64,000 nucleotides of DNA, from contig NZ_CP065037.1 in the NCBI RefSeq assembly GCF_019924635.1, forward strand, positions 2,604,001 through 2,668,000. Reading direction: 5' to 3'. Positions within the stretch are counted from its first letter, which is position 1. Each line of letters starts with the position of its first letter. Shown in pieces: positions 5,174-18,828 of the stretch. Both the position numbers and the translations under genes were made by a program. The notes below the pieces were generated by a model that made no database searches, was not told the DNA's origin, and saw nothing but the letters and a program-made list of their open reading frames with translations. Source of the stretch: Leifsonia sp. ZF2019. GTDB taxonomy: Bacteria > Actinomycetota > Actinomycetes > Actinomycetales > Microbacteriaceae.

Positions 5174-6519
5174 GTCGGGGCGACGCTCCCGACACGAAGG
5201 AGCCCGACGATACGACGCTGGCCCGCCGGCGCCACTTCGTCGACCTCAGCCCGCTGAGGGAGTCCCCCGCGTTCGCGCGCCTCTGGCTCGGCGGCGCGAT
5301 CTCCGGCATCGGCGGTCAGATGACCATCGTGGCGGTCGGCCTCCACATCTACGACCTGACCGGGTCGACCCTGGCGGTGGCACTCGTCGCCCTCTTCGCG
5401 CTCGTGCCGATGATCGTGTTCGGACTCTACGGCGGGGTGCTCGCCGACGCGTTCGACCGTCGGCTGGTCGCACTGATCACGGCCATTGTCGCGTGGGCCT
5501 CCACCGCGGGCATCGCGGTGTTCGCGTGGCTCGACATCCAGGTGGTGTGGCCGCTCTATGTGCTCACGACGATCAACGCGGTGGCGTCGGTCATGATCGG
5601 CGGCACGCGGCAGGCGATCACGCCGCGCCTGCTGCCCACCCGGCTCCTCCCCGCGGCGAGCGCGCTCGGCGGGATCAGCATGGGCGTGATGGTCACCGTC
5701 GGACCGGCGCTCGCGGGCGTGCTGGTGGCGACGGTGGGCATCCCGTGGACGTACACCCTCGACGTGCTGCTCTTCACGGCGGCGTTCCTCGGCATCTTCA
5801 CCCTGCCGGCGATCGTGCCGGAGGGTGAGAAGCAGAGCGCCGGGCTCGCGTCGGTGCTGCAGGGTCTGCGCTTCCTGCGATCGGCGCCCAACCTCAGCAT
5901 GACGTTCGTGCTCGACGTGATCGCGATGACGTTCGGTCAGCCGCGCGCGCTGTTCCCCGCCGTCGGCGCGCTGCTGATCGGCGGCGGTCCGGTGACCGTC
6001 GGCATCCTGACCGCGGCCGGCGCCGTCGGCACCCTCGTGTCGAGCGTCTTCTCGGGGAGGCTGGGTCACGTGCGCTGGCAGGGTCGTGCCGTGGAGCGGG
6101 CCATCCTCGTGTACGGCGCCAGCATCCTGGGCTTCGGGATCGTGCTGGCCGTGGTGGCGCTCGGCGGCTGGACGGGCGGCGGTGCGTCGATCGCCCAGGC
6201 CAATCTCCCGGCGCTCGTGCTCGCCACGCTCCTGCTCGCCGCCTCCGGCGCGGCCGACAACGTCAGCTCCATCTTCCGCATGACCATCCTGCAGGCCTCG
6301 GCGCCCGACACCATGCGCGGGCGGCTGCAGGGCGTGTTCACGGTCGTCGTGACCGGCGGCCCGCGGCTCGGCGACCTCTATATCGGCCTCCTCGCGCTCA
6401 CCGGCGCGCTCTGGTTCCCGCCGCTGCTGGGCGGACTCCTGATCATCGTGCTCGTCGCGACCGTCGTGCGCGTGCAGGGGGCCTTCCGGCGGTACGACGC
6501 CCTGGAGCCGACTCCCTGA
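5170..6519 (+). CDS. MFS exporter with apparent CTG start
   Basis: A transporter of the MFS_3 / enterobactin-exporter-like branch with about 12 hydrophobic segments. The coding similarity clearly begins before the first ATG (5320): the segment LRESPAFARLWLGGAISGIG is the usual N-terminus and first helix of this branch. No ATG, GTG or TTG exists in frame upstream of 5320, back through the preceding gene. The only well-placed candidate is CTG at 5170, forming a CTGA overlap with the preceding TGA; a second CTG is at 5218. From 5170 the product is 449 residues. The substrate is unknown. A start at 5320 would delete the first helix. Confidence 0.75.
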   Translation: MSRGDAPDTKEPDDTTLARRRHFVDLSPLRESPAFARLWLGGAISGIGGQMTIVAVGLHIYDLTGSTLAVALVALFALVPMIVFGLYGGVLADAFDRRLVALITAIVAWASTAGIAVFAWLDIQVVWPLYVLTTINAVASVMIGGTRQAITPRLLPTRLLPAASALGGISMGVMVTVGPALAGVLVATVGIPWTYTLDVLLFTAAFLGIFTLPAIVPEGEKQSAGLASVLQGLRFLRSAPNLSMTFVLDVIAMTFGQPRALFPAVGALLIGGGPVTVGILTAAGAVGTLVSSVFSGRLGHVRWQGRAVERAILVYGASILGFGIVLAVVALGGWTGGGASIAQANLPALVLATLLLAASGAADNVSSIFRMTILQASAPDTMRGRLQGVFTVVVTGGPRLGDLYIGLLALTGALWFPPLLGGLLIIVLVATVVRVQGAFRRYDALEPTP

Positions 6520-6555
6520 CGTCCCCGCCGCAGCGCTGACGTGTGCGCGTGGCCT

Positions 6556-6595
6556 CGGGACGGCTGGACCGGCTCGCCCCGCCGCTCTCGTCCCG
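6556..6595. terminator. Weak inverted repeat between convergent genes
   Basis: CGGGACG (6556-6562) and CGTCCCG (6589-6595) could pair between the convergent MFS exporter and citrate synthase genes. The loop is 26 nt and there is no T-tract, so this is a poor terminator candidate. Confidence 0.2.
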
Positions 6596-6623
6596 CACCG
6601 GCGCACAACCGCGGATGCTGTGC

Positions 6624-7757
6624 TCAGGCCCGCACCGGATCGGGACCGACGTAGCGCGCTGACGGTCGGAAGATCTTGCCGTCCTCCGCCTGCTCCAGCA
6701 CGTGCGCCGTCCAGCCGACGACGCGCGCGGCGGCGAAGGTCGGCGTGAACATCGGGCGCGGGATGCCGCAGAGCTCCATCACGATGCCGGCGTAGAACTC
6801 GACGTTGGTGTGCAGCTCGCGGCCGGGCTTCAGCTCGGCGAGCAGCTGCTGCACGCGCTCTTCGACGCGCACCGCGAAGTCCACGCGTGCACCGCCGAAT
6901 CCGAGGGCGACATCCCGCAGCATCCGGGAGCGCGGGTCCTCGGTGCGGTAGACGGCATGGCCGAAGCCCATGATGCGATCACCCGAGCGCACGGCGGCGG
7001 TGACCCACTCGTCGATGCGGTCGGGCGTGCCGATCGCGTCGAGCGTGTCGAGCGCGCGGCTGGGCGCACCACCGTGCAGCGGCCCGGAGAGCGCGCCGAG
7101 GGCGCCGCCGACCGCGGAGGCGAGGTCCGCTCCCGTCGAGGCGATGACGCGAGCGGTGAAGGTGGACGCGTTGAAGCCGTGGTCGATCGCCGCGGTCATG
7201 TAAGTGCTCAGGGCGCGCTCGTGCTCCGGTGCGGGCTCCTCCCCGGTGAGGAGGAAGAGGTAATCGGCGACATGGCCGAGGTCGTCCCGCGGCGCGAGCG
7301 GCCGACTCCCCCCGGCGAGCGCGTGCAGGGAGGCCAGCAGGACCGGGGTGATCGCGGCGACGCGGATCGCGTCGCGCAGCCGGGCGCCCGCGTCCTCGTC
7401 GTAGACGGGACGGATGCCGTCCGCCGCCGCGACCGCCGTGAGCGCCATCCGCAGACCGGCCAACGGATCGCCTGCGGTGAGCCGTGCGATCGCGGGCAGG
7501 AGCTCGGAGACCTCCTCCGGCACGCGGCGGGCCTCCGCGACACGGACCCGGAAGGCGTCGAGCTCCGCGTCGCCCGGCAGCTCGCCGTGCAGCAGCAGAT
7601 ACCAGGACTCCTCGAAGGTGCGATCGCGGGCGAGGTCGACCGCCGAGTGCCGCCGGTAGTGGTAGAACCCCTCCTGCCCGCGCACGTCGCCAAGCGCGGT
7701 GCGCGCGGCGACGACGTTGGTGAGCCCACGGGGAACGTCGATCAGGGTGTCGTCCAT
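6624..7757 (-). CDS. Citrate synthase (CitA-like)
   Basis: A 377-residue citrate synthase homologue, condensing an acyl-CoA with oxaloacetate. Family landmarks are present: the first catalytic His in SGPLHGGAPSRA, the second in IMGFGHAVYRTEDPRSR, and the C-terminal motif NVEFYAGIVMELCGIP. The last has Glu where most citrate synthases have the catalytic Asp, a conservative change I believe also occurs in CitA-type enzymes. Whether it is a citrate or 2-methylcitrate synthase cannot be told. It diverges from an HTH-bearing homologue. ATG 7757 suits the TATCCT -10 at 7767-7772 better than ATG 7766, which would lie 1 nt from that element. Confidence 0.88.
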   Translation of the reverse strand: MDDTLIDVPRGLTNVVAARTALGDVRGQEGFYHYRRHSAVDLARDRTFEESWYLLLHGELPGDAELDAFRVRVAEARRVPEEVSELLPAIARLTAGDPLAGLRMALTAVAAADGIRPVYDEDAGARLRDAIRVAAITPVLLASLHALAGGSRPLAPRDDLGHVADYLFLLTGEEPAPEHERALSTYMTAAIDHGFNASTFTARVIASTGADLASAVGGALGALSGPLHGGAPSRALDTLDAIGTPDRIDEWVTAAVRSGDRIMGFGHAVYRTEDPRSRMLRDVALGFGGARVDFAVRVEERVQQLLAELKPGRELHTNVEFYAGIVMELCGIPRPMFTPTFAAARVVGWTAHVLEQAEDGKIFRPSARYVGPDPVRA

Positions 7758-7766
7758 CCGGTCCAT

Positions 7767-7817
7767 GAGGATAGTGTGAACATGGATTTTCACGACGTCA
7801 ACGTTGATCGGATCAAC
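7767..7817. promoter_or_regulatory. Divergent promoter/operator between the two citrate synthase genes
   Basis: TATCCT on the minus strand (7767-7772) and TAGTGT on the plus strand (7772-7777) share a base and could serve the two divergent genes. Next to them are GTGAA...TTCAC (7776-7793) and a perfect 15-bp dyad GTTGATCGGATCAAC (7803-7817) that abuts the plus-strand ATG. AACATGGAT occurs twice, at 7779 and 7815. The adjacent gene encodes an HTH domain, so auto-regulation at the dyad is a reasonable inference. Confidence 0.5.
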
Positions 7818-9041
7818 ATGGATGCACTCCCCCGGCTGACCGCCGAGCAGACCGCCACGCGGCTCGGCGTCAAGCTCGAGACCCTGTACGCCTACGTCGC
7901 CCGCGGCCGCCTCACCCGGGTGCGGACGGCGGAGGGCTCCACCTTCGACCCACTGGAGGTCGAGCGTTTCGCCGCATCCCGCCGCCGTCGCGACGCGCCG
8001 GCCGGTGCTCAGGGCGGTCGCTCCGAGGGCCGCCCCCTGATGGTGATCGAGACGGACTTCGCACTGATCGAGGACGGCGAGCTGTACTACCGCGGGCGCC
8101 GCGCGACCGATCTCGCCGCCGAGAGCTTCGAGACGGTCGCGCACTGGGCGCTCACCGGCGACTGGCAGCCGGAGATCCGGTTCCGCCCCGGCGCCGGAAT
8201 GGCCGACGTCCGGCGTGCGGTGGAGTCGCTGCCCGCCTCCGCCGGGGACCGCGACCGGCAGCTGATCGCGGTGACAGCCCTCGCCTCCGCAGACCCTTTG
8301 CGGACCTCCCTCGACCCGGCGAGCGTCGCCGGGGCGGCTGAGCGCATGGTCGCCGGGATGGTGGAGGCGCTCCCCCTCCTCCGGGCCGAGGGTGAGCACG
8401 AGACCGACCCGCTCGCACTGCGCCTGCACCGCCGGCTCCGCACCGGGCCGCCCGCGCCGAGCGCGGTCGCCGCCCTCGACGCGGCGCTCGTGCTGCTCAT
8501 CGACCACGACCTCGCCGTGTCCACTCTCGCCGCCCGCGCCGCGGCCTCCGCGCGCGCGACTCCATACGGCGTCGTGGTCGCCGGGATGGGCGCGCTCGAC
8601 TCCCCGTTGCACGGCAACGCCAGCCGGGCGGCCCATCGCCTGCTCGCCCGGGTGGTCGACGGAGAGGAACCCGCACGGGTCGTCGCCGACGCCGTCGTCG
8701 GCACCGGTGGACCGGTCCCGGGGTTCGGGCAACCGCTCTACCCGGACGGGGATCCACGGGCCAGAGCCCTCCTCGATCTGCTGGGCGGCGACCCCGATGC
8801 CGGTCCGGTGCTCGCCGCGGTCGGGAGTGCGGCGAGCCTCCTGAGCGATCGCACCGGTGCGCTGCCGAACGTCGACCTCGCACTCGGCGCGCTCACGCTC
8901 GCGCACGGGATGCGCGATGACGCCGGCGAGGTGATCTTCGCCACGGCGCGGTCGATCGGCTTCGTGCTGCACGCGCTCGCGGAGTACCGTGAGCCTCCGC
9001 TCCGACTGCGACCGGTCGGCCGCTACACCGGCCCGACCTGA
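7818..9041 (+). CDS. Citrate synthase-like protein with N-terminal HTH domain
   Basis: A 407-residue fusion. Residues about 4-55 form an excisionase/MerR-type helix-turn-helix (LTAEQTATRLGVKLETLYAYV, a linker, then FDPLEVERFAASRRRR); the rest is a citrate synthase fold. The first catalytic His is kept (SPLHGNASRA, His265) and so is an Asp at NVDLALG (Asp353). The second catalytic His, normally GxGHxxY, is Gln in GFGQPLYPDGDP (Gln305). That makes full catalysis doubtful and suggests a metabolite-sensing regulator, an inference. ATG 7782 is an alternative start adding 12 residues; I prefer 7818 because an operator-like dyad ends at 7817. Confidence 0.85.
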   Translation: MDALPRLTAEQTATRLGVKLETLYAYVARGRLTRVRTAEGSTFDPLEVERFAASRRRRDAPAGAQGGRSEGRPLMVIETDFALIEDGELYYRGRRATDLAAESFETVAHWALTGDWQPEIRFRPGAGMADVRRAVESLPASAGDRDRQLIAVTALASADPLRTSLDPASVAGAAERMVAGMVEALPLLRAEGEHETDPLALRLHRRLRTGPPAPSAVAALDAALVLLIDHDLAVSTLAARAAASARATPYGVVVAGMGALDSPLHGNASRAAHRLLARVVDGEEPARVVADAVVGTGGPVPGFGQPLYPDGDPRARALLDLLGGDPDAGPVLAAVGSAASLLSDRTGALPNVDLALGALTLAHGMRDDAGEVIFATARSIGFVLHALAEYREPPLRLRPVGRYTGPT

Positions 9042-9122: not shown

Positions 9123-9782
9123 CTACCGCCGCAGCGCCTTGCGCGCCAGCCAGTTGCCGAGGAACTGGGCGGCCTGCACCAGCACGACGATGGTGATGAC
9201 CGCGATCCAGGTCACCGCCCAGTCATAGCGCTGGTAGCCGTAGGCGATCGCGAAATTGCCCAGGCCGCCGCCGCCGATGCTGCCCGCGATCGCCGACAGG
9301 TCGACGATCGCGACGAAGATGAACGTGTAGCCCAGGATGAGCGGGCCGAGCGCCTCCGGGATCAGCAGCGTGGCGATGATGCGCAGCGGGTGGGATCCCA
9401 TCGCGCGGGCCGCCTCGATCACGCCCGGCTCGATCGTGACCAGGTTCTGCTCCACGATCCGCGAGATGCCGAACGTCGCGGCGATGGTCATCGGGAAGAT
9501 CGCCGCGGGCGTGCCGAGGAACGTTCCGAGCACCGCCTGTGTCAGCGGGGCGATCGCGGTCATGAAGATGATGAACGGGATCGGGCGGATGAAGTTGACC
9601 ACGATGTTGAGGACCGTGAAGACCGCCGTGTTCTCCAGCAGGCCGCCCTTGCGGGTGGTGTAGAGCAGCACGCCGAGCACCAGCCCGAAGACGCCACCGA
9701 GCACGAGGGTGACGACGACCATCCAGAGCGTCTGCCCGATCGAGTCGAGATAGACGGGCCAGAGAGTGGACCAGTCGCTCAT
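9123..9782 (-). CDS. metI: Methionine ABC transporter permease MetI
   Basis: The membrane-spanning subunit of a MetNIQ importer for D/L-methionine. The 219-residue protein has about five transmembrane helices and the BPD-type coupling loop EAARAMGSHPLRIIATLLIPEA, which contacts the ATPase. The length matches MetI. It is the last gene of the unit; its ATG overlaps the metN stop (ATGA), so expression is coupled to metN. Confidence 0.93.
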   Translation of the reverse strand: MSDWSTLWPVYLDSIGQTLWMVVVTLVLGGVFGLVLGVLLYTTRKGGLLENTAVFTVLNIVVNFIRPIPFIIFMTAIAPLTQAVLGTFLGTPAAIFPMTIAATFGISRIVEQNLVTIEPGVIEAARAMGSHPLRIIATLLIPEALGPLILGYTFIFVAIVDLSAIAGSIGGGGLGNFAIAYGYQRYDWAVTWIAVITIVVLVQAAQFLGNWLARKALRR

Positions 9783-10804
9783 GCGGCGACCTCCTCGACC
9801 TCGGTGACGGTGCGCAGCTCGGCGACCAGCGCGTCCACGGCGGCCGGCTCACCGAGCAGCTCGAGCGTGAGGCTGCCGAACGAGCGGCCCTGCAGCGCGG
9901 AGATGCCCCCGTAGACGATCTCGAAGCGCACGCCGTGACGGCCGACCGCATCCGAGAGCACCGAGCCCAGCCGGCCGTCGTCGGTGATGCGGGCGGAGAC
10001 GATACGGCCGGTGTGCTTGCCGCGCAGCCGCTCGATGTCGGCGGCCTCGGGCTGGTTGCGGAGTACCGTGCCGACGAACCGCCGAGCGGTCGACGTCTGC
10101 GGGTCGGAGAACACCTCGAAGACGCTCCCCTGCTCGATCACCCGTCCGGAGTCGAGCACGGCGACGCGGTCGGCGATCGACCGGACGACCTCCATCTCGT
10201 GCGTGATGACGACGATCGTGACGCCGAGCTCCTCATTGACGCGCTTGAGCAGCGCGAGCACGTCGGCGGTGGTCTCGGGGTCGAGGGCGCTGGTCGCCTC
10301 GTCGGCGAGGAGGATGTCCGGATTCGTCGCGAGCGCCCGCGCGATGCCGACGCGTTGCTTCTGGCCGCCGGAGAGCTGGTCGGGATAGGCCCATGCCTTC
10401 TCGGTCAGCCCGACGAAGGCGAGCAGCTCCGCGACGCGCGTCTTGCGTTCGTCCGCCGGCCAGCCCGCCACCTTGAGCGGATAGGCGATGTTGCCGAACA
10501 CGGTGCGCGAACGGAACAGGTTGAACTGCTGGAAGATCATCCCGATCCCGGCGCGGACGCTGCGCAGCTCGCGCTCCTTCAGCGCGGTGAGCTCGCGGCC
10601 ATCGACGACGATCGAGCCGCTGGTCGCGTGCTCGAGGGCATTGATGAGGCGCAGGAGCGTGCTCTTGCCGGCACCGGAGTAGCCGATGATGCCGAAGATC
10701 TCGCCGCGCTCGACGGCGAGATCGATGTCTTCGACGGCGGTGACCGTGGCGTCACCCGAGCGGAAGCTCTTGGTGACGCCACGGAACTCGATGATGGGGC
10801 TCAC
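9779..10804 (-). CDS. metN: Methionine ABC transporter ATP-binding protein MetN
   Basis: The 341-residue ATPase of the methionine importer. It shows Walker A GYSGAGKS near residue 40, the Q-loop FQQFNLF, the signature LSGGQKQR, Walker B ILLADEAT and the H-loop VVITHEM. A C-terminal regulatory NIL domain (about 262-341) follows, the part that in studied MetN proteins binds methionine and inhibits transport. It sits 4 nt downstream of metQ and overlaps metI, in the order metQ-metN-metI. Confidence 0.95.
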   Translation of the reverse strand: MSPIIEFRGVTKSFRSGDATVTAVEDIDLAVERGEIFGIIGYSGAGKSTLLRLINALEHATSGSIVVDGRELTALKERELRSVRAGIGMIFQQFNLFRSRTVFGNIAYPLKVAGWPADERKTRVAELLAFVGLTEKAWAYPDQLSGGQKQRVGIARALATNPDILLADEATSALDPETTADVLALLKRVNEELGVTIVVITHEMEVVRSIADRVAVLDSGRVIEQGSVFEVFSDPQTSTARRFVGTVLRNQPEAADIERLRGKHTGRIVSARITDDGRLGSVLSDAVGRHGVRFEIVYGGISALQGRSFGSLTLELLGEPAAVDALVAELRTVTEVEEVAA

Positions 10805-10808
10805 CGTG

Positions 10809-11777
10809 CTACTTCGCCGCCTCGATGTTCTTCTTGAGGGTGTCGAGGACCGCGATCAGGTCGGACTGCGGCTTGTCGACGATCACCGCGGTGTTCTTCG
10901 ACTCGGCGAGAACGGACTCGGTGACCTCCTTCGAGTGGTAGAGCTCGGCGACCTTGAGGTACGTCGCGTTGTCCTTGTCCTTCTCGCGGGCGACGAAGGC
11001 ATTGATGTAGGGCTCGGCGGTCTCGGACTTCGGGTCGTCCTGGAAGATGGCGGACTTCGGGTCGATGCCCGCGGTCAGCGCGAAGTTGTTGTTGACGATG
11101 GCGCCGTCGGCCGAGTTGAGCGCCGGGGCGGTCTGGGCCGCGTCGACGGGGATCACGGTGACCTTCGAGGCCGCGACGTCGATGTCGGCGGGCGTGGCAA
11201 GAGTGTTGCCGCCGTCCTTCAGCGTGAGGAGGCCGGCCTTCTGGAGCACGAGGAGCGCTCGGGCCTGGTTGGTCGCGTCGTTCGGGATGGCGATCTGCGC
11301 GCCCTGCGGGATGGCGTCGACCGAGTCGTACTTCTTCGAGTAGAGCGGCAGCGGCACGACGAGCGTGGAGGCGATGGGCACGAGGTCCTGCTTGGCCTGC
11401 ACGTCGTAGTTCGCGAGGAACTGCAGGTGCTGGAAGAGGTTGAGGTCGATCTGCCCGTCAGCGAGCGCCGGGTTCGCCTGCGTGTAGTCGCTGAAGCCGA
11501 CGACGTCGATGGTGATGCCCTCCGCCGCCGCCTTCTTCTTGAGGATCGACCAATACGGTGCGGCCTGCTCGGTGGTGCCGATCTTGACCGTGACGTTCTT
11601 CGAGCCCGCGGCCTGCGAGGATCCGGTGCCCGCGAGGTTGACGGCGATGAGCACGCCCGCCACGACGACGGCGACCACCGCGACGCCGATGCCGACGAAC
11701 CAGCCGGTCTTGGACTTCTTCGGCTTCTCGGGCAGGGCCGGAGCCGGCGAACCGGCAGGAGGGGTGGCGTCGGGCAT
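10809..11777 (-). CDS. metQ: MetQ/NlpA family methionine-binding protein, membrane-anchored
   Basis: The 322-residue substrate-binding subunit of the methionine importer. From about residue 65 the sequence is a typical NlpA lipoprotein fold (VKIGTTEQAAPYWSIL, ALADGQIDLNLFQHLQFL, AIPNDATNQARALLVLQ). The N-terminus differs from the standard lipoprotein: a Pro/Lys-rich segment (PALPEKPKKSKTG) is followed by a long hydrophobic helix (about 31-53) and no lipobox Cys. It would therefore be held by an uncleaved signal anchor. ATG 11777 is preceded by AGAGAGAGG; an upstream ATG at 11867 lies in unlikely coding sequence. Confidence 0.9.
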   Translation of the reverse strand: MPDATPPAGSPAPALPEKPKKSKTGWFVGIGVAVVAVVVAGVLIAVNLAGTGSSQAAGSKNVTVKIGTTEQAAPYWSILKKKAAAEGITIDVVGFSDYTQANPALADGQIDLNLFQHLQFLANYDVQAKQDLVPIASTLVVPLPLYSKKYDSVDAIPQGAQIAIPNDATNQARALLVLQKAGLLTLKDGGNTLATPADIDVAASKVTVIPVDAAQTAPALNSADGAIVNNNFALTAGIDPKSAIFQDDPKSETAEPYINAFVAREKDKDNATYLKVAELYHSKEVTESVLAESKNTAVIVDKPQSDLIAVLDTLKKNIEAAK

Positions 11778-11980
11778 GGCTGTGCCTCTCTCTTGTGAAG
11801 GGGGGATGTGATACCGGTGTTCGTCCGCCGGTGGACCCAGCCTCTCAGCCGCCCGGTGGAGGGTCAAAAAGCATTCCGAAATGTGACGAGGGACGTCTCG
11901 CCCGCGCTGTTCCGGACACCCCTATGACGCAGGCGGCGGCGCGCGTAGTGTGGCGGGCACCGAGCGAAGTGGAGGCCCCC
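11778..11980. other. Intergenic promoter region between metQ and the repeat-peptide gene
   Basis: No gene seen in 203 bp. On the minus strand, TTGACC near 11862-11867 could be a -35 for metQ, without a convincing -10. On the plus strand TAGTGT (11946-11951) could be a -10 for the repeat-peptide cassette, giving a leader of about 23 nt with GGAGG 5 nt before the ATG. I found no SAM riboswitch signature. Confidence 0.35.
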
Positions 11981-12229
11981 ATGGGCGCGATCGACGACGA
12001 CGACATCACCACCAGTGCCAGCGGCGGCGGCGAAGGCCCCGCGGACGGCGGAGCCAACCCGAACGGCCACGACGGCGGAGCCGACGGATCGGCCGGCGAA
12101 GGCCCGGCCGACGGCGGAGCCAACCCGAACGGCCACGACGGCGGAGCCGACGGATCGGCCGGCGAAGGCCCGGCCGACGGCGGAGCCAACCCCAGCGGCC
12201 ACGACGGCGGAGCCGACGGGTCCGCTTGA
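11981..12229 (+). CDS. Short acidic triple-repeat peptide (putative modified peptide or substrate)
   Basis: An 82-residue peptide with two parts. Residues 1-16 (MGAIDDDDITTSASGG) form an acidic leader-like segment; residues 17-82 are exactly three tandem 22-residue units. Each unit begins GEGPADGGANP, has one His in the segment GHDGGADGSA and contains no Cys, aromatic or Lys/Arg residue. Units 1 and 2 are identical in protein; unit 3 differs by one Asn-to-Ser change. The peptide should be unstructured and has no signal peptide. GGAGG lies 5 nt before the ATG. The stop overlaps the oxygenase ATG (TGATG), so the two are co-translated. I do not recognise the family; a role as substrate of the oxygenase is inference. 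Confidence 0.75.
   Translation: MGAIDDDDITTSASGGGEGPADGGANPNGHDGGADGSAGEGPADGGANPNGHDGGADGSAGEGPADGGANPSGHDGGADGSA
12029..12226 (+). repeat. Three 66-bp in-frame tandem repeats
   Basis: Units lie at 12029-12094, 12095-12160 and 12161-12226. They are nearly identical at the DNA level, differing at a few positions near the start of unit 1 and in unit 3, so codon use is conserved as well as protein. This suggests recent duplication or gene conversion. Confidence 0.9.
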
Positions 12230-13479
12230 TGGCGACGGACGGGCGCGGGCCGGGCGACCGGCCCGCGCTTTCGCGTTGCACGGCGATCGGGCGGGACGCG
12301 TTCGCGGCGGACCACTGGGGACGTCGGCCGCTGTTCACCCGCGCGGCCGACCTCGACGGCGGCTTCGCCGATCTGTTCAGCGCGGAGGATGCGGACACAC
12401 TCGTCGCCGACCGGGCGCTCCGCACCCCGTTCGCCCGCATGGCGAAGGAGGGCGACGTGCTTCCCGCCGCGCGCTACACGGGCGGTGGCGGTTTCGGGGC
12501 CGAGATCGGCGACCAGATCGCGAGCGACCGCGTGCTCGCCGAGCTCGCCGCGGGCACCACGCTCGTGCTCCAGGGGCTGCATCGCACCTGGGCGCCGATC
12601 GCGGAGTTCGCGCGGGCGCTCTCCGCCGAGCTGGGTCATCCCTGTCAGGTGAACGCGTACATCACACCGGCCTCCGCACGCGGCTTCGACCCGCACTACG
12701 ACGTGCACGACGTGTTCGTGCTGCAGATCGCCGGGGAGAAGCAGTGGCGCATCCACGAGCCGGTGCACCCGGATCCGCTGCGCGGCCAGCCGTGGACAGA
12801 CCACCGTGCCGCCGTCGCCGCCCGAGCGCAGGAGCCGCCCGCGATCGACGAGACGTTCCGCCCGGGCGATGCCCTGTACCTGCCGCGTGGCTGGATCCAC
12901 TCGGCGACCGCGCTCGGCGAGCTCTCCATCCATCTCACGGTAGGGGTCGCCGCGTACACGCGCGAGGAGGTGATGGCTGCCGCGGTCGGGCAGGCCTCCG
13001 ACATCGCCGCCCTCCGCACGTCGCTGCCGCTGGGCTTCGACCCGGACGACCAGGCCGCGGTCGACGCCGAAGTGTCGGCTGCCCTCGACACGCTCCGCGC
13101 GGCGCTCGATGATCCCGCGCGCCGCGCGGCCGTCGCCGCGGCGGTCGGGGCGACGCTGCGTGCGCGGCGGCGTCGCGACTCGCCTCCCGGACCGGTCCGC
13201 CCCCTCGCCACGGTGGCGGCCTCCGATCGCCTGGACGGGATGACCGTCGTCGCCGCACGGAGCGGGCTCCGGCCCGAGCACACCGTCGAGGTCGAGACGG
13301 TGACGATCCGTCTCGCCGGCCGCACCGTCGCCCTCCCGATCGCGGCGCGCGCCGCCGTCGAACGGCTCCTGGACGGGAGTCCTGTCCGTGTCGGCGAGCT
13401 CCCCGGCCTCGACCCGGAGTCCGCGGTGGTCGTCGCACGGCGACTGCTGCGGGAGGGCGTCGTCGTGATCGCACCGTGA
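12229..13479 (+). CDS. JmjC/ROX-type Fe(II)/2-oxoglutarate oxygenase (cupin)
   Basis: A 416-residue protein resembling the ribosomal-oxygenase group (YcfD/ROX) that hydroxylates residues in proteins. The metal ligands are visible: HxD in GFDPHYDVHDVFVLQIAGEKQW (His156, Asp158) and the distal His in YLPRGWIHSAT (His224). NAYITPASARGFDPH before the HxD matches ROX proteins. After the JmjC core comes a helical region (about 250-320) and a C-terminal winged-helix-like domain ending GLDPESAVVVARRLLREGVV. Genuine ROX proteins are not usually coupled to a repeat peptide; here a 1-nt overlap ties it to one. The substrate is not shown by sequence. A sucrase-ferredoxin-like gene follows after 10 nt. 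Confidence 0.88.
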   Translation: MATDGRGPGDRPALSRCTAIGRDAFAADHWGRRPLFTRAADLDGGFADLFSAEDADTLVADRALRTPFARMAKEGDVLPAARYTGGGGFGAEIGDQIASDRVLAELAAGTTLVLQGLHRTWAPIAEFARALSAELGHPCQVNAYITPASARGFDPHYDVHDVFVLQIAGEKQWRIHEPVHPDPLRGQPWTDHRAAVAARAQEPPAIDETFRPGDALYLPRGWIHSATALGELSIHLTVGVAAYTREEVMAAAVGQASDIAALRTSLPLGFDPDDQAAVDAEVSAALDTLRAALDDPARRAAVAAAVGATLRARRRRDSPPGPVRPLATVAASDRLDGMTVVAARSGLRPEHTVEVETVTIRLAGRTVALPIAARAAVERLLDGSPVRVGELPGLDPESAVVVARRLLREGVVVIAP

Positions 13480-13489
13480 CGGACCCCCG

Positions 13490-14386
13490 ATGACGACGGC
13501 GGCCGGCTGGCTCCCCTGCAGCGACCGCGCCCGCGAACGGGGCGACCCGCTCGCGGGCACCGCCGGCCTCGGCGAGCGGTGGTTGCTGGTCGAGATCGAG
13601 AGCGGGTGGGGGCGGCACGCCTTCTTCGACTCGGCCCTCGACCCGGCCGTGGGCGCAGCGCTGGTGGCGCGGGCGGAAGCCGCGGGGATCCGTCCGCTGG
13701 CGATCCGCCGCACCGGGCTGCGAGCGGAGGACCGTCGTGGCCAGCGGTCCTGGCGCTGGGCCCTCGTGGATGCTCGTCCCGGGCGCGCCGCCATCCGCTG
13801 GGGACGCGCGGACACGGAGCGGGAGCTGCTCGCGCTGCCGCTCGACGGCAGCGCGGGCGTTCCGAGCGACCGCCCGGTCTATGCGGTGTGCGCGCACGCC
13901 CGGCACGATCAGTGCTGCGCCGTCCGCGGACGACCGGTGGTGCAGGCGCTGGCGGCGGCGCATCCCGACGAGACCTGGGAGTGCTCGCACCTCGGGGGCG
14001 ACCGCTTCGCCGCGACCATGATCGTGTTCCCGCACGGACTGCTCTACGGGCGCGTCCCCGCTGCCGAGGCCGGGCAGGTGGTCGCACGATACGCAGAGGG
14101 CCGCGTCGATCCGCGCTACCTGCGCGGTCGCACCGCGCTCTCGACCGTCGCGCAGGCGGCAGAGGCGTTCGCCCGGGACCACTCCGGCGACGACGCGATC
14201 GAGGCCTTCCGCGTGCTGGAGGAGCATGCGCACCCGCACGGGTGGACCGTCCGCCTCGCGCACGCCGGCGGAGCGGTCGAGGTCGAGGTGGGCGAGCGCC
14301 TCTCGGAGCCGCTGCTCAGCACCTGCGCGGCGACCGTCGCCCACCGGGTCCGAGAGTTCGTGCCGGTCTCGGTGCGCCGGGCCTGA
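13490..14386 (+). CDS. Sucrase ferredoxin-like [2Fe-2S] protein
   Basis: A 298-residue protein of the sucrase/ferredoxin-like family, which has a C-terminal thioredoxin-like ferredoxin fold. Likely cluster ligands are Cys134, Cys142 and Cys143 in YAVCAHARHDQCCAVRG and Cys165 in WECSHLGGDRFAATM, followed by the conserved FPHGLLYGRV. The N-terminal half (about 1-120) has no motif I recognise. It is 10 nt downstream of the JmjC oxygenase and in the same direction, so it is likely in the same transcript; providing electrons to keep the oxygenase iron reduced is a possible role, but inferred. No transporter or siderophore gene is adjacent. Confidence 0.87.
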   Translation: MTTAAGWLPCSDRARERGDPLAGTAGLGERWLLVEIESGWGRHAFFDSALDPAVGAALVARAEAAGIRPLAIRRTGLRAEDRRGQRSWRWALVDARPGRAAIRWGRADTERELLALPLDGSAGVPSDRPVYAVCAHARHDQCCAVRGRPVVQALAAAHPDETWECSHLGGDRFAATMIVFPHGLLYGRVPAAEAGQVVARYAEGRVDPRYLRGRTALSTVAQAAEAFARDHSGDDAIEAFRVLEEHAHPHGWTVRLAHAGGAVEVEVGERLSEPLLSTCAATVAHRVREFVPVSVRRA

Positions 14387-14911: not shown

Positions 14912-15325
14912 TCAGCTGCTCCGCTGGTGCTCGCGCACGGGACGGACGCGCTGCTTGGCGATGCAGTCCGGCATCGCGGTGACGGAGAGGTGCTCGCGCG
15001 AGCGGTAGCTGGAGGGCGTCTCCCCCACCAGCTCGCTGAACTTCGCGCTGAACGACCCGAGCGACGTGCAGCCGACCGTCATGCACGCGTCGGTCACGCT
15101 CATCCCGGTGCGGAGCAGTGCCATCGCGCGCTCGATGCGGCGTGTCATCAGGTAGCTGTACGGCGTCTCGCCGTAGGCGGCGCGGAATCGGCGCGAGAAG
15201 TGGGAGGCCGACATGTAGGCGTGCGCGGCGAGGGTCGGCACGTCGAGCGGCTTGGCGTAGTCGCGGTCGATGAGATCGCGCGCCCGCCGGAGCGCCGCGA
15301 GCGTCTGCAGCTCCTCGCGGTTCAT
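14912..15325 (-). CDS. Short AraC-family transcriptional regulator
   Basis: A 137-residue protein that is little more than an AraC DNA-binding domain. The first HTH is around DVPTLAAHAYMSASHFSRRF (about 29-48) and the second around SVTDACMTVGCTSLGSFSAKF (about 76-96), followed by the family signature residues. The usual effector-binding N-terminal domain is absent. Its ATG overlaps the stop of the upstream nuclease/helicase gene by 4 nt (ATGA), with GGAGGG in front of it. The downstream VOC gene is a plausible target, since small AraC and VOC genes are often adjacent. Confidence 0.88.
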   Translation of the reverse strand: MNREELQTLAALRRARDLIDRDYAKPLDVPTLAAHAYMSASHFSRRFRAAYGETPYSYLMTRRIERAMALLRTGMSVTDACMTVGCTSLGSFSAKFSELVGETPSSYRSREHLSVTAMPDCIAKQRVRPVREHQRSS

Positions 15326-18300
15326 CCCTCCACCGTAACCCGCGCGGCCTCCGGCGACCAGGCGGGGATGTCCTCCACGAGCCGGATGAACCCGCTGAGC
15401 TCGGTGACGCCCGCCGGGGTCGTCGGCAGGAACTCGGACAGTTCGGGCGAATGGACGAGGAAGGCCGCCCACTTCGCGCGCGAGATCGCGACGTTCAGAC
15501 GGTTCATCATCAGCAGGAACGACATGCCGCGCGGCGCGTCCGCTGCACTGGAGGCGGCGAGGCTCACGATCGCGATCGCGGCCTCCTGCCCCTGGAACTT
15601 GTCGACCGTCCCGACCCGTACGGCTGTCTGCCCGGCGGCGTCGAGCGCGGTGCGCACCTGCGCGAGCTGTGCGTTGTAGGGCGTGACCACGATGACGTCC
15701 TCGGGAGCGAGAGGTGCGTCGGTCGCACCGGCGGACGGGTCCGTCCAGGAGCGCCCGAGCACCGTGTCGACGAGCTCGAGGACCACGGCCGCCTCTTCCG
15801 GCGACGCGGTCGCGTTGCCGGTGTGCGCGACGGGGACGGGGTGCAGGCCCGGCTCCACGCCGTCGAGCACGCGGTCGCTCGCGGTGGGGTGGGCGTGCAG
15901 CCGCCCCTCGTATGAGAGCACGGAGACCGCGTCGGCCAGAGCCGGATGCATGCGGCGGCTCTCGGCGAGGAAGTAGCCGTACGCGGCGGGCAGCACGTCG
16001 TGCCCTTCGCTCACCCAGCCCAGCGCCGAACCGTCGACCGGTTCGGGGTGGCGGCCCTGGCTGACCTGGGGCAGCTGCTGCGGGTCGCCGAGCAGCAGGA
16101 GGTTGCGCGCGGCGACACCGACGGCGATGGTCGAGGCGAGGGAGAACTGGCCCGCCTCGTCGACGACCAGGAGATCGAGGCTGTCGCGCGGCACACGGCC
16201 GGGGTTGGCGAAGTCCCAGGCGGTCCCTCCCAGCACGAAGCCGGACGCCGCGTTGTCCTCCGCGAAGACCAGGTGGGCGTCCGACGGGAGAACCGTGTAG
16301 GCCCGCTCGACGTCGGGAGCGGCGGAGGCACTCGCCGCCTTGCCGACCCGTGCGGGATCGAGCCCGGCCGCCACGACGCGGTCGAGCAGGTTCTCCACCA
16401 CCGCGTGCGACTGGGCGACCACTCCGACGCGCCAGCCGTGCTCGGCGACGAGCCGGGCGATGACGTGCGCGCCGAGGTACGACTTGCCCGTGCCGGGCGG
16501 CCCCTGCACGGCGAGGTACGAGCGGTCGAGGTCGAGCAGGCTCGCCACCACCGCCGTGATGCGTCCGCCGCCGTCGGCCGGCCCCTCGTCGGCCAGCCGG
16601 CCCGAGCGGGTGCGCGGCGGTGTGCGGCGCAGCAGATCGACCGTCGCATCGACCGGCCAGGTGCCGCCACGCAGCGCGGCGAGGAGGTCGGAGCCCCACT
16701 CGCGGATCGCGTCGCCCAGCCGTCGTGCGTCCGGCGGCGCCGCGGGTGTGAGCGCCGTGGGCGTGTTGCGGTACGGGAGGACGTCCTTCGGCAGTGTCTC
16801 CCGAACCACGACGGAGCCGTCGTCGGTCGCTCCGATCACGGCGACGGTGCGGGCGGTGCGCGAGCCCGGCTGGGCACGCGGCTGGCGGTAGGGCCCCGGG
16901 AACTCGTAGAGCAGGAAGGGCCCGCTGCGCTCGCTGACGCGCACGGCGCTCCCCGCTCCCCACTGCCCGCTCAGGAGCAGCTCGCGGCGTTCGACACGCT
17001 GTCCGTCGTCCTGGTGCCAGTCGCGGACGACCTGCACCGACTCGACGGCGAGCACGTCGCGGGTCTCGGCCCACTCCTCGATCGGCTGGATGAGGCGGGC
17101 GTAGTGCGACTGCCAGAAGGTCTTCTGCTCGCGGCGGTGGAAGTCGATCGCGGCCGCCGCAAGGGCGACCGCCGCTCGATCGGGAGTGCGGTGCGGGTCG
17201 AGCGGATCGCCCGCGTACCCGAGCAGGGCGGCGCGCAACGGCGACTCCTCCGGGGCGGGTTCGAGGTCGTCGACGGGTGCCGCGCCGACCGGGATGCTGT
17301 TCTCCGCGGCGCGGTCGAGCAGCCAGTCGCGCAGGCGCAGGGTGCTGACGCAGTCGTAGCGGTTGTAGTCGGCGAGCGCGTCGAGCAACGGCTGCGCCTC
17401 GTCGTCTCGTCCCAGCGCCAGCAGGTCGCGGGCGTTGGCGTACTCGGTGATCGAGTCGGCGCCGTTCGTGACTTCGCTGTGGCGCAATTCGTCGCCCATG
17501 TAGAGCGGTTCGAGCTTCTTGATCGAGTACGAGCGCGACCCCACCCGGACGGCCTTGCGCACCAGCGGGTACAGGTCGACCAGCACCGCGTCGCGCAGCA
17601 GGCCGTCGACCTCCTCTTCGCCGACGCCGTGGCGGGCGGCCAGCGCGAGCAGGTGGGTCTGCTCGTAGGCCGCGTAGTGGTAGATGTGCAGCTGCGGGTA
17701 CTGTCGGCGGCGCTCGCGCACGAACGCGAGGAACGCCTCCAGTGCCACCCGCTCGGCTGCGAAGTCGTGCCCCCAGAAGGCGGTGTACTCGGCGTCCACG
17801 TCGACCATGCCGAACAGGTAGTCGAGTCCCCAGCGCTCGCCCGCGCCCTCCGTGTAGAGCGGATCGCCCTCGAAGTCGAAGAAGAGGTCGCCCGGATCGG
17901 GCTGCGGAAGGGCCGCGAGCACGGGCGCGTTGTAGACCCGGACGGGAGGGGCCTCCCCCGGTGCGGCCCGCAGCTGCAGCCGAGCCTGTTCGCGCAGCCC
18001 CTCGAGCGTGCCGTCGGGGATCCCCTCGATCGGCCCGTCGGAGGCGGCCAACGAGTCGATGGTGCCGAGCCCCGCGGCGATCAGGCGGTCGCGCTGCGTG
18101 ACGCGCATCCCCGCGACCAGGAGCACGTCGTGGGAGGCCTGCACCTCGGCGTCGCACGTGTCGCAGCGACCGCAGACGGTGAAGCGGGGGTCGCCCCACG
18201 CGACCGCACCCGGATCGGCCAGATGCGCGTCGATCACATCGAGCAGACGGGCGCGGCGCTTGCGATAGACCGGTTCGATGTCGGACAGCCGGTGCTCGCT

Positions 18301-18828
18301 CACGGATCCGTCGCCGAGGAGCAGCTCGACGGTCTCGTCGGTGTCCACCCCGAGCCGGCGCAGCTGGTCGGCGTAGGCGGCGAGCTGCAGCAGCGCGGTG
18401 ACGCGCGCACTGCGGGCGAGCTTGGAGTCCTGCACGCGGTAGCGGCCATCGGGACGACGCACCACGAAATCGGCGAAGCCGACGAACGCCCCGTCGAAGA
18501 ACGTCGCCTGGAACACGACCTCGGCCTCGGACCGGAACGCCTCCGAGGTGAGCGCGACGGCCTCCGCCAGAGCGTCCGCCGTCAGATTCTCGGGGCGCGC
18601 GATTTCGGCCACGCCGCTCCCGAAGGTCTCGCGGTAGCGCTCCAGGATGTGGTGCTCGTGCTCGTCGCCCAGCCGGGATGACCGCACGTACATCGGGTCC
18701 TCGATCTCGCGTTCCTTCTCGATGCGCCCGAGCTTGACGTCGAGCGAGCGCAGGAACGCGAACTCGCATTTGGAGGCCTCGGTCAGATCGCTGGCGCTGG
18801 TGACGATGACTCCGTCGAGCACGAACAC
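15322..18828 (-). CDS. TM0106-type RecB-like nuclease fused to SF1 helicase
   Basis: A 1168-residue fusion. The N-terminal part (about 1-230) is a RecB-like nuclease domain with the motif region FVGFADFVVRRPDG...YRVQDSKLA and a likely Fe-S staple: Cys21 with Cys219, Cys222 and Cys225 (CGRCDTC). The middle (about 300-540) resembles an RNase H-fold module (LFFDFEGDPLY; DYNRYDCVSTLRLRDWL). The C-terminal part is a DNA2/NAM7-like SF1 helicase: Walker A GPPGTGKS near residue 775, DEAGQ near 888, GDPQQLPQV, VGTVDKFQGQE and MNRLNVAISRAKW. All motor motifs look intact. The role is unknown; DNA repair or defence is inference. The stop overlaps an AraC regulator. Confidence 0.9.
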   Translation of the reverse strand: MFVLDGVIVTSASDLTEASKCEFAFLRSLDVKLGRIEKEREIEDPMYVRSSRLGDEHEHHILERYRETFGSGVAEIARPENLTADALAEAVALTSEAFRSEAEVVFQATFFDGAFVGFADFVVRRPDGRYRVQDSKLARSARVTALLQLAAYADQLRRLGVDTDETVELLLGDGSVSEHRLSDIEPVYRKRRARLLDVIDAHLADPGAVAWGDPRFTVCGRCDTCDAEVQASHDVLLVAGMRVTQRDRLIAAGLGTIDSLAASDGPIEGIPDGTLEGLREQARLQLRAAPGEAPPVRVYNAPVLAALPQPDPGDLFFDFEGDPLYTEGAGERWGLDYLFGMVDVDAEYTAFWGHDFAAERVALEAFLAFVRERRRQYPQLHIYHYAAYEQTHLLALAARHGVGEEEVDGLLRDAVLVDLYPLVRKAVRVGSRSYSIKKLEPLYMGDELRHSEVTNGADSITEYANARDLLALGRDDEAQPLLDALADYNRYDCVSTLRLRDWLLDRAAENSIPVGAAPVDDLEPAPEESPLRAALLGYAGDPLDPHRTPDRAAVALAAAAIDFHRREQKTFWQSHYARLIQPIEEWAETRDVLAVESVQVVRDWHQDDGQRVERRELLLSGQWGAGSAVRVSERSGPFLLYEFPGPYRQPRAQPGSRTARTVAVIGATDDGSVVVRETLPKDVLPYRNTPTALTPAAPPDARRLGDAIREWGSDLLAALRGGTWPVDATVDLLRRTPPRTRSGRLADEGPADGGGRITAVVASLLDLDRSYLAVQGPPGTGKSYLGAHVIARLVAEHGWRVGVVAQSHAVVENLLDRVVAAGLDPARVGKAASASAAPDVERAYTVLPSDAHLVFAEDNAASGFVLGGTAWDFANPGRVPRDSLDLLVVDEAGQFSLASTIAVGVAARNLLLLGDPQQLPQVSQGRHPEPVDGSALGWVSEGHDVLPAAYGYFLAESRRMHPALADAVSVLSYEGRLHAHPTASDRVLDGVEPGLHPVPVAHTGNATASPEEAAVVLELVDTVLGRSWTDPSAGATDAPLAPEDVIVVTPYNAQLAQVRTALDAAGQTAVRVGTVDKFQGQEAAIAIVSLAASSAADAPRGMSFLLMMNRLNVAISRAKWAAFLVHSPELSEFLPTTPAGVTELSGFIRLVEDIPAWSPEAARVTVEG

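Follow-up and report, generated by a model that had tools for sequence, protein, structure and literature searches.

A 64,000-nucleotide stretch of the Leifsonia sp. ZF2019 genome (contig NZ_CP065037.1, positions 2,604,001 to 2,668,000; hereafter the window) carries three consecutive genes at 11981-14386 on the + strand. They encode an Asp-repeat peptide, a JmjC_2 oxygenase and a Suc_Fer-like ferredoxin. The peptide and oxygenase genes, usually together with the ferredoxin gene, are conserved together across actinobacteria. We see an even chance that the three genes form a minimal cassette like those for ribosomally synthesized and post-translationally modified peptides (RiPPs), in which a winged helix of the oxygenase would grip the acidic head of the peptide and the JmjC domain would hydroxylate its repeated Asp. 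The parts of this proposal differ in strength. The peptide is very probably the substrate of the oxygenase, the case for Asp as the modified residue is evenly balanced, and intracellular metal binding as the role of the product is rather doubtful.

Translation, the open reading frames (ORFs) and the Pfam matches bear out the anatomy given in a preliminary description of this DNA, namely an 82-residue peptide with a 16-residue head and three 22-residue units, a TGATG junction and a 10-nt spacing (Table 1). At the junction, the peptide stop TGA gives its A to the JmjC start ATG, and the 10 nt lie between the JmjC stop and the Suc_Fer-like start. Two of the repeats are identical in protein, and the third differs from them by one N-to-S change. 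Tandem Repeats Finder reported 66 bp x 2.9 copies at 12028-12219 with 96% matches. Synonymous/nonsynonymous codon differences were 2/0, 6/1 and 4/1 among the three repeats, and 12/2 and 15/3 between the peptide gene and those of two Leifsonia relatives. Because these changes are mostly synonymous, the peptide frame is under protein-level constraint. The peptide matched no family in NCBIfam or Pfam, and its named homologues include some from Rhodococcus, Actinoplanes, Salinispora and Micromonospora. Each of the three genes occurs once in the 4.34-Mb genome, where the only other match of the peptide is its own antisense (E 0.085).

Table 1. Features of the three-gene cassette, in window coordinates.
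Feature	Position	Strand	Basis and remarks
Putative ribosome-binding site GGAGG	11971..11975	+	Inferred from sequence reading; 5 nt ahead of peptide ATG
Precursor-like peptide gene, 82 aa	11981..12229	+	Translation; TGA stop 12227-12229; 182 homologues at E<=1e-3
Acidic head, 16 residues, MGAIDDDDITTSASGG, leader-like recognition motif	11981..12028	+	Head pattern in homologous ORFs
Repeat 1, GEGPADGGANPNGHDGGADGSA	12029..12094	+	Translation, Tandem Repeats Finder, codon comparison
Repeat 2, protein identical to repeat 1, 64/66 bases the same	12095..12160	+	Codon comparison
Repeat 3, single N-to-S change	12161..12226	+	Codon comparison
JmjC_2 Fe(II)/2-oxoglutarate oxygenase, 416 aa, winged helix at the C-terminus	12229..13479	+	Pfam, catalytic residues, fold, PDB profile match
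JmjC_2 domain, residues 137-246, with H156, D158 and H224	12637..12966	+	Pfam and conservation
Winged-helix domain of RiPP recognition element (RRE) fold, residues 328-416	13210..13476	+	Separate model and structural matches
Suc_Fer-like protein (thioredoxin-like ferredoxin family), 298 aa	13490..14386	+	Pfam PF06999, E 7.4e-17
Predicted cluster motif C134-X8-C143 ... H167-X3-D171	13889..14002	+	Asp where relatives have His

Conservation of the set was assessed in a family sample of 299 genomes, a phylum sample of 396 genomes and eight loci from the GTDB collection. Loci were called cassette-type at a JmjC score of at least 180 bits; eleven far JmjC loci below 170 bits and further JmjC matches of one genome (G645) were left out of the counts, which come from sequences related to each other and do not represent independent events. 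The phylum sample had JmjC matches in 58 of 396 genomes and none in 338. Fifty-two genomes held 53 cassette-type loci, and the six others had far matches only. An Asp-rich, usually repetitive small ORF lies directly upstream of the oxygenase gene in 49 of these 53 loci; three of the remaining four are cut by contig ends (L105, L110, L165), and the fourth, L108, has an acidic, non-repetitive ORF. The ferredoxin gene adjoins in 44 of 51 assessable loci. In the family sample, for which one locus per genome was examined, JmjC matches were found in 38 genomes, comprising the window's own locus, 34 other cassette-type loci and three far ones (L173-L175). All 34 have the repeat ORF upstream, shortened by a contig end in L029, and all except L005 have the adjoining ferredoxin gene (33/34). 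The GTDB loci showed the repeat ORF in seven of eight cases (only its end in L035 and L037; L034 has just 35 nt upstream) and the ferredoxin in all eight. Over all samples, the ferredoxin adjoins in 84 of 92 assessable loci, with L018 and L068, which come from one genome, counted once. Carriers include Leifsonia, Mycobacterium, Jatrophihabitans, Dermatophilaceae records, Egicoccus and Nitriliruptor. The preliminary description had treated the three genes as a unit and would have given it up had neighbour analysis separated peptide and oxygenase; the neighbours show the two conserved together.

A joint scan for an Asp-rich tail and the acidic head motif, using a criterion written after the peptides had been seen, took in 494,747 bases and 2708 ORFs from 45 sources, namely the window plus 44 loci. 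It gave 31 matches, at most one per source and each of them, judged by its sequence, the JmjC-adjacent ORF; 14 of the 45 sources had no match. The pattern GHDGGADG of the close relatives occurred in 10 of 396 phylum genomes, and its backwards control in none. All nine genomes with at least two copies have a cassette JmjC, and the single-copy genome (G569) does not. Among ORFs of at least 100 aa in flanks of roughly 6 kb at most, shorter at some loci, no neighbour family beyond the set occurred in more than nine of 49 loci, nor did any shared transporter, protease, exporter or regulator. Genes for leader removal or export, which are common but not obligatory in RiPP clusters, were thus no shared feature of the 49 loci.

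The peptides were compared in 82 upstream ORFs, 41 from close loci (at least 500 bits) and 41 from distant ones. These include the window's own ORF (as L067) and L108, and leave out L029, L035 and L037 (cut, less than 50 aa), L018, which shares its genome with L068, and the later loci L168-L172. Of the 82 ORFs, 74 matched a pattern for the acidic head, typically as INDDDITT or LTDEDIETV; these were 40 of the 41 close ORFs and 34 of the 41 distant ones. Inspection by eye showed that the match in L039 is not canonical and that the missed L027, L106 and L114 do carry the head. A canonical head is lacking in L039, L076, L077, L078 and L108 and, among later loci, in L171 and L172. The head, earlier proposed to be a leader, is thus mostly conserved while the repeats behind it vary among several types. 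At the sequence level, a head that is largely kept and a tail that can be exchanged are what one expects of a part that is recognised followed by a part that is modified, and the loci combine a conserved recognition region, a variable core and an adjoining modifying enzyme as RiPP clusters do.

The C-terminal winged helix appeared in models of both the full chain and the separate domain. It models as an RRE fold, with strands ahead of helices, and its nearest structures are MINA53 and NO66; structural matches of the model therefore agree with the earlier suggestion of an RRE-like domain. Winged helices are general in ribosomal oxygenases (PMC6182338), so the presence of one is in itself no proof of leader binding. 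Arg405 is replaced only in two loci without a canonical head, and other headless loci retain it. Arg344 is lost in three loci that have the head. A weak match of the JmjC protein to PqqD_rel_X (E 0.12, residues 247-291) fell outside the winged helix and was ignored.

The oxygenase itself belongs to the JmjC_2 fold family (Pfam E 2.5e-26), with an HxD...H triad, a 2-oxoglutarate lysine, a dimerisation bundle and a winged helix after the JmjC domain. The predicted iron ligands H156, D158 and H224 and the predicted 2-oxoglutarate lysine K171, roles assigned by analogy with NO66, are present in all 88 aligned cassette-type sequences. The protein shares 78-83% identity with three Leifsonia homologues, and its PDB profile match is NO66 (E 1e-29). 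In our searches, human NO66/MINA53 were closer to this clade than E. coli YcfD, both over the full chain and over the winged helix. Three invariant arginines, Arg65, Arg70 and Arg119, are possible contacts for an acidic substrate. Public labels of homologues (NO66 demethylase, L16 Arg81 hydroxylase, cupin; BatC for one peptide) look transferred, and the first two are probably misleading for cassette proteins. A role in antiphage defence was discarded, as PADLOC assigned no family to the JmjC protein or the ferredoxin.

Ribosomal proteins are the targets of the known enzymes with this fold, which raises the question of whether the JmjC protein acts elsewhere, for example on such a protein, and is merely co-transcribed with an independent Asp-rich, perhaps calcium-binding, protein. 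RTX calcium-binding repeats are nonapeptides of the form GGxGxDxUx, where U is a large hydrophobic residue; the peptide has a 22-residue repeat with no large hydrophobic residue. Asp/Gly-rich repeats as such are, however, known in calcium-binding RTX proteins (PMC3034196). We consider an independent peptide very unlikely, given that the one-to-one adjacency persists across much sequence divergence and that an RRE fold accompanies a mostly conserved head. The absence of a JmjC match from 338 of 396 phylum genomes is also unlike a housekeeping ribosome modifier. The genomic context argues for the peptide, rather than a ribosomal protein, as the substrate.

Which residue is modified was approached through the composition of the last 45 residues of the 82 ORFs. 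The 41 close ORFs mostly repeat GEGxADGGANxxGHDGGADGSA or a near relative, and the distant repeats include DGTDADGTDA, DGDASDA, DGDASDASDGDASDA, DADAADAD, DGTDQGVxGGTxGPRDA, PTEDDENLDAPGEHSQDTGDE and others. Asp and Ala occur in all 82 cores, Gly in 81, Ser in 75, Thr in 74, His in 52 and Asn in 44. Ser and Thr taken together are found in every core, but as low as one per core. Asp numbers at least six per core (median 7 close, 17 distant), with nine in the window's repeats and more than 30 in some relatives. Its spacings are regular, at 4 and 9 in one group and 3, 5 and 8 in the other, and Asp-Asp neighbours are depleted: the close cores contain 1 where 40 are expected, and the distant cores 27 where 204 are expected. 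Since Asp is in every core, at least six times and regularly spaced, it is, judged from composition, the best candidate for a target common to the whole family; Ser and Thr remain candidates. Two peptides stand apart in their cores. In L118, where a cassette-type JmjC has no adjacent ferredoxin, the peptide contains two exact 21-residue repeats, PTEDDENLDAPGEHSQDTGDE, unlike other cores, and L094 has several DGTDQGVxGGTxGPRDA repeats as a further core type behind the same head.

The preliminary description had taken the repeats, each with one His and with Asn/Asp residues, as the substrate. His or Asn as the modified residue does not hold for the family in general, as 27 of the 82 cores, one of them the non-repetitive L108, have neither. 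A hydroxylation of the single His (or Asn) of each repeat, with the Asp-rich sequence as a soluble spacer, would fit the closest solved relatives, NO66 and MINA53, which are histidyl hydroxylases, and the close cores, where His is found in 40 of 41 and Asn in 38 of 41. Yet only 12 of 41 distant cores contain His, and L077 has Gln at the His position while the active-site residues of its enzyme are unchanged, so that we regard this explanation as unlikely. The Egicoccus halophilus peptide (L123) is one of those free of His. Both Asp and His occur in the repeats of all five of L168-L172, outside the 82. The NO66 substrate motif NHXH (PMC4556315) was also considered and is absent from the repeats, where Asn sits four residues ahead of His.

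From the anatomy, the co-conservation, the catalytic residues and the fold resemblance, we infer the following binding, chemistry and function. The acidic head would most likely dock on the RRE-fold winged helix and thereby deliver the flexible repeat tail past the JmjC iron site. Using Fe(II), 2-oxoglutarate and O2, the JmjC domain would then hydroxylate the repeated Asp, most probably on its beta carbon and at many sites in each peptide; within the subfamily of the window, His and Asn may be modified as well. BipG and FIH offer precedents. FIH is a JmjC-fold enzyme. It hydroxylates Asp as well as Asn and His (PMC4543633). The product would probably remain intracellular, given that the loci share no exporter, protease or regulator, and could be a polyanionic peptide that binds a metal such as iron or calcium. 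This metal-binding proposal derives from beta-hydroxyaspartate, which is a metal ligand in siderophores. We hold only tentatively the full picture of an actinobacterial peptide class in which many Asp become beta-hydroxyaspartate, giving an intracellular metal-binding polymer, with the winged helix as a leader-binding RRE and the ferredoxin carrying an Asp-ligated [2Fe-2S] cluster.

Hydroxylation might also trigger a further step at Asp, such as backbone cleavage, decarboxylation or crosslinking, leaving a product that is not simply hydroxylated. HEXXH RiPP oxygenases cleave the backbone (PMC12636437), and SmaO/SmaX turn Asp into aminomalonate (PMC13097080). This seems distinctly unlikely here, where the loci, apart from the ferredoxin that some of them lack, have no further tailoring enzyme in common.

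The cassette ferredoxins keep CX8C and the first His, and 78 of 79 aligned rows, among which L067 repeats the window, show Asp at the position of the second predicted His ligand; the sole exception has Cys. HX3D was also found in all six cassette ferredoxins fetched later. They do not carry the bis-histidinyl motif CX8CXnHX3H. Of 25 non-cassette relatives, drawn from the best Pfam matches in that sample of the phylum, His stands here in 24, and the remaining one is off-pattern. This difference marks the cassette ferredoxin as a subfamily of its own in which one predicted ligand has changed. The ferredoxin may be an accessory redox partner that keeps the oxygenase iron ferrous, in line with the support for the iron centre proposed in the preliminary description, or that acts on the modified peptide. 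It cannot be essential, because it is not adjacent in eight of the 92 assessable loci, and two of the genomes concerned (G573, G502), which have JmjC and peptide, contain no PF06999 match anywhere.

None of the eleven far JmjC loci (L119, L125, L129, L132, L134, L135, L166, L167, L173, L174, L175) has an adjacent ferredoxin or, by our criteria, an Asp-rich repeat ORF. TfuA is a thioamidation partner in RiPP pathways, and in L125 the far JmjC gene lies just downstream of a TfuA-like gene (6064-8064, - strand; Pfam E 8.1e-28). From this neighbour, the far group may have a RiPP-like context too. Small ORFs ending 55 and 110 nt ahead of the far JmjC genes of L129 and L134 share an RSDGND tail and are possibly another precursor type. 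Around the cassette in the window, a divergent set at 9123-11867 (- strand) encodes an ABC permease, a NIL-domain ATPase and an NlpA lipoprotein, probably a methionine-type importer; such genes are not common among cassette loci. Downstream, 15322-18828 (- strand) encodes a protein of 1168 aa that combines RNase_H_2 with AAA_11/AAA_12 helicase domains.

If our reading is correct, the cassette is a widespread and very small RiPP-like pathway of one enzyme, one peptide and, in most cases, a ferredoxin, and its core is unusual in that Asp recurs at regular intervals. A 2018 review calls the winged-helix function of ribosomal oxygenases unclear (PMC6182338); a leader-binding role would explain the winged helix of human NO66 and MINA53 and make its role in ribosomal oxygenases directly testable. 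The cassette would also offer a ferredoxin subfamily in which Asp has apparently replaced a His ligand.

The claim that no such system had been described stands in part. Among the matches listed from open PMC papers, none was recognisable by its title and the opening of its abstract as a description of the whole cassette, and in the excerpts of related RiPP and JmjC literature compared, Asp-repeat precursors, the acidic head and a ferredoxin partner are not described. Related enzymes are nevertheless in print, both JmjC RiPP hydroxylases (PMC12707348, PMC12257519) and RRE-PF08007 fusions (PMC12710340). The latter, JmjC-RRE proteins, join an RRE-like fold to PF08007 and have bacterial homologues in RiPP-like contexts; the excerpt mentions neither a precursor family nor repeats, a ferredoxin or the chemistry, and does not state an overlap with the cassette clade. 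BipG, BpmG and PbsQ of biphenomycin biosynthesis are, like the cassette enzyme, JmjC-type or cupin-like 2-oxoglutarate/Fe(II) hydroxylases of a ribosomal precursor (PMC12707348; PMC12257519), BipG being a JmjC protein that hydroxylates ornithine (PMC12707348). Their description sets them apart as ornithine-selective members of a multi-enzyme antibiotic cluster, and the excerpts mention neither Asp repeats nor a ferredoxin. ChlH and SmaO hydroxylate precursor Asp, and CorC of corallotide hydroxylates five repeats of a precursor (PMC12636437, PMC13097080); CorC is of PF13640 and ChlH of the HEXXH type, and neither is a JmjC_2 protein like the cassette enzyme. Compared with RRE-dependent RiPP systems (PqqD, TbiB1, PbtF and others), the cassette has JmjC as its modifying domain, Asp-rich repeats as its core, and loci without a common protease or exporter. 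The bacterial L16 arginyl hydroxylases YcfD and RmYcfD have the same domain order as the cassette JmjC protein. NO66 and MINA53 (JmjC_2, PF08007) differ from it in that the cassette enzyme is encoded beside a small repeat peptide, and its segment with R65 and R70 aligns to a gap in NO66. The [2Fe-2S] cluster of yeast Aim32 is bis-histidinyl, and its motif is CX8CXnHX3H (PMC8482512); with Aim32/Apd1 (PF06999), the cassette ferredoxin shares CX8C and the following His, and has Asp in place of the second.

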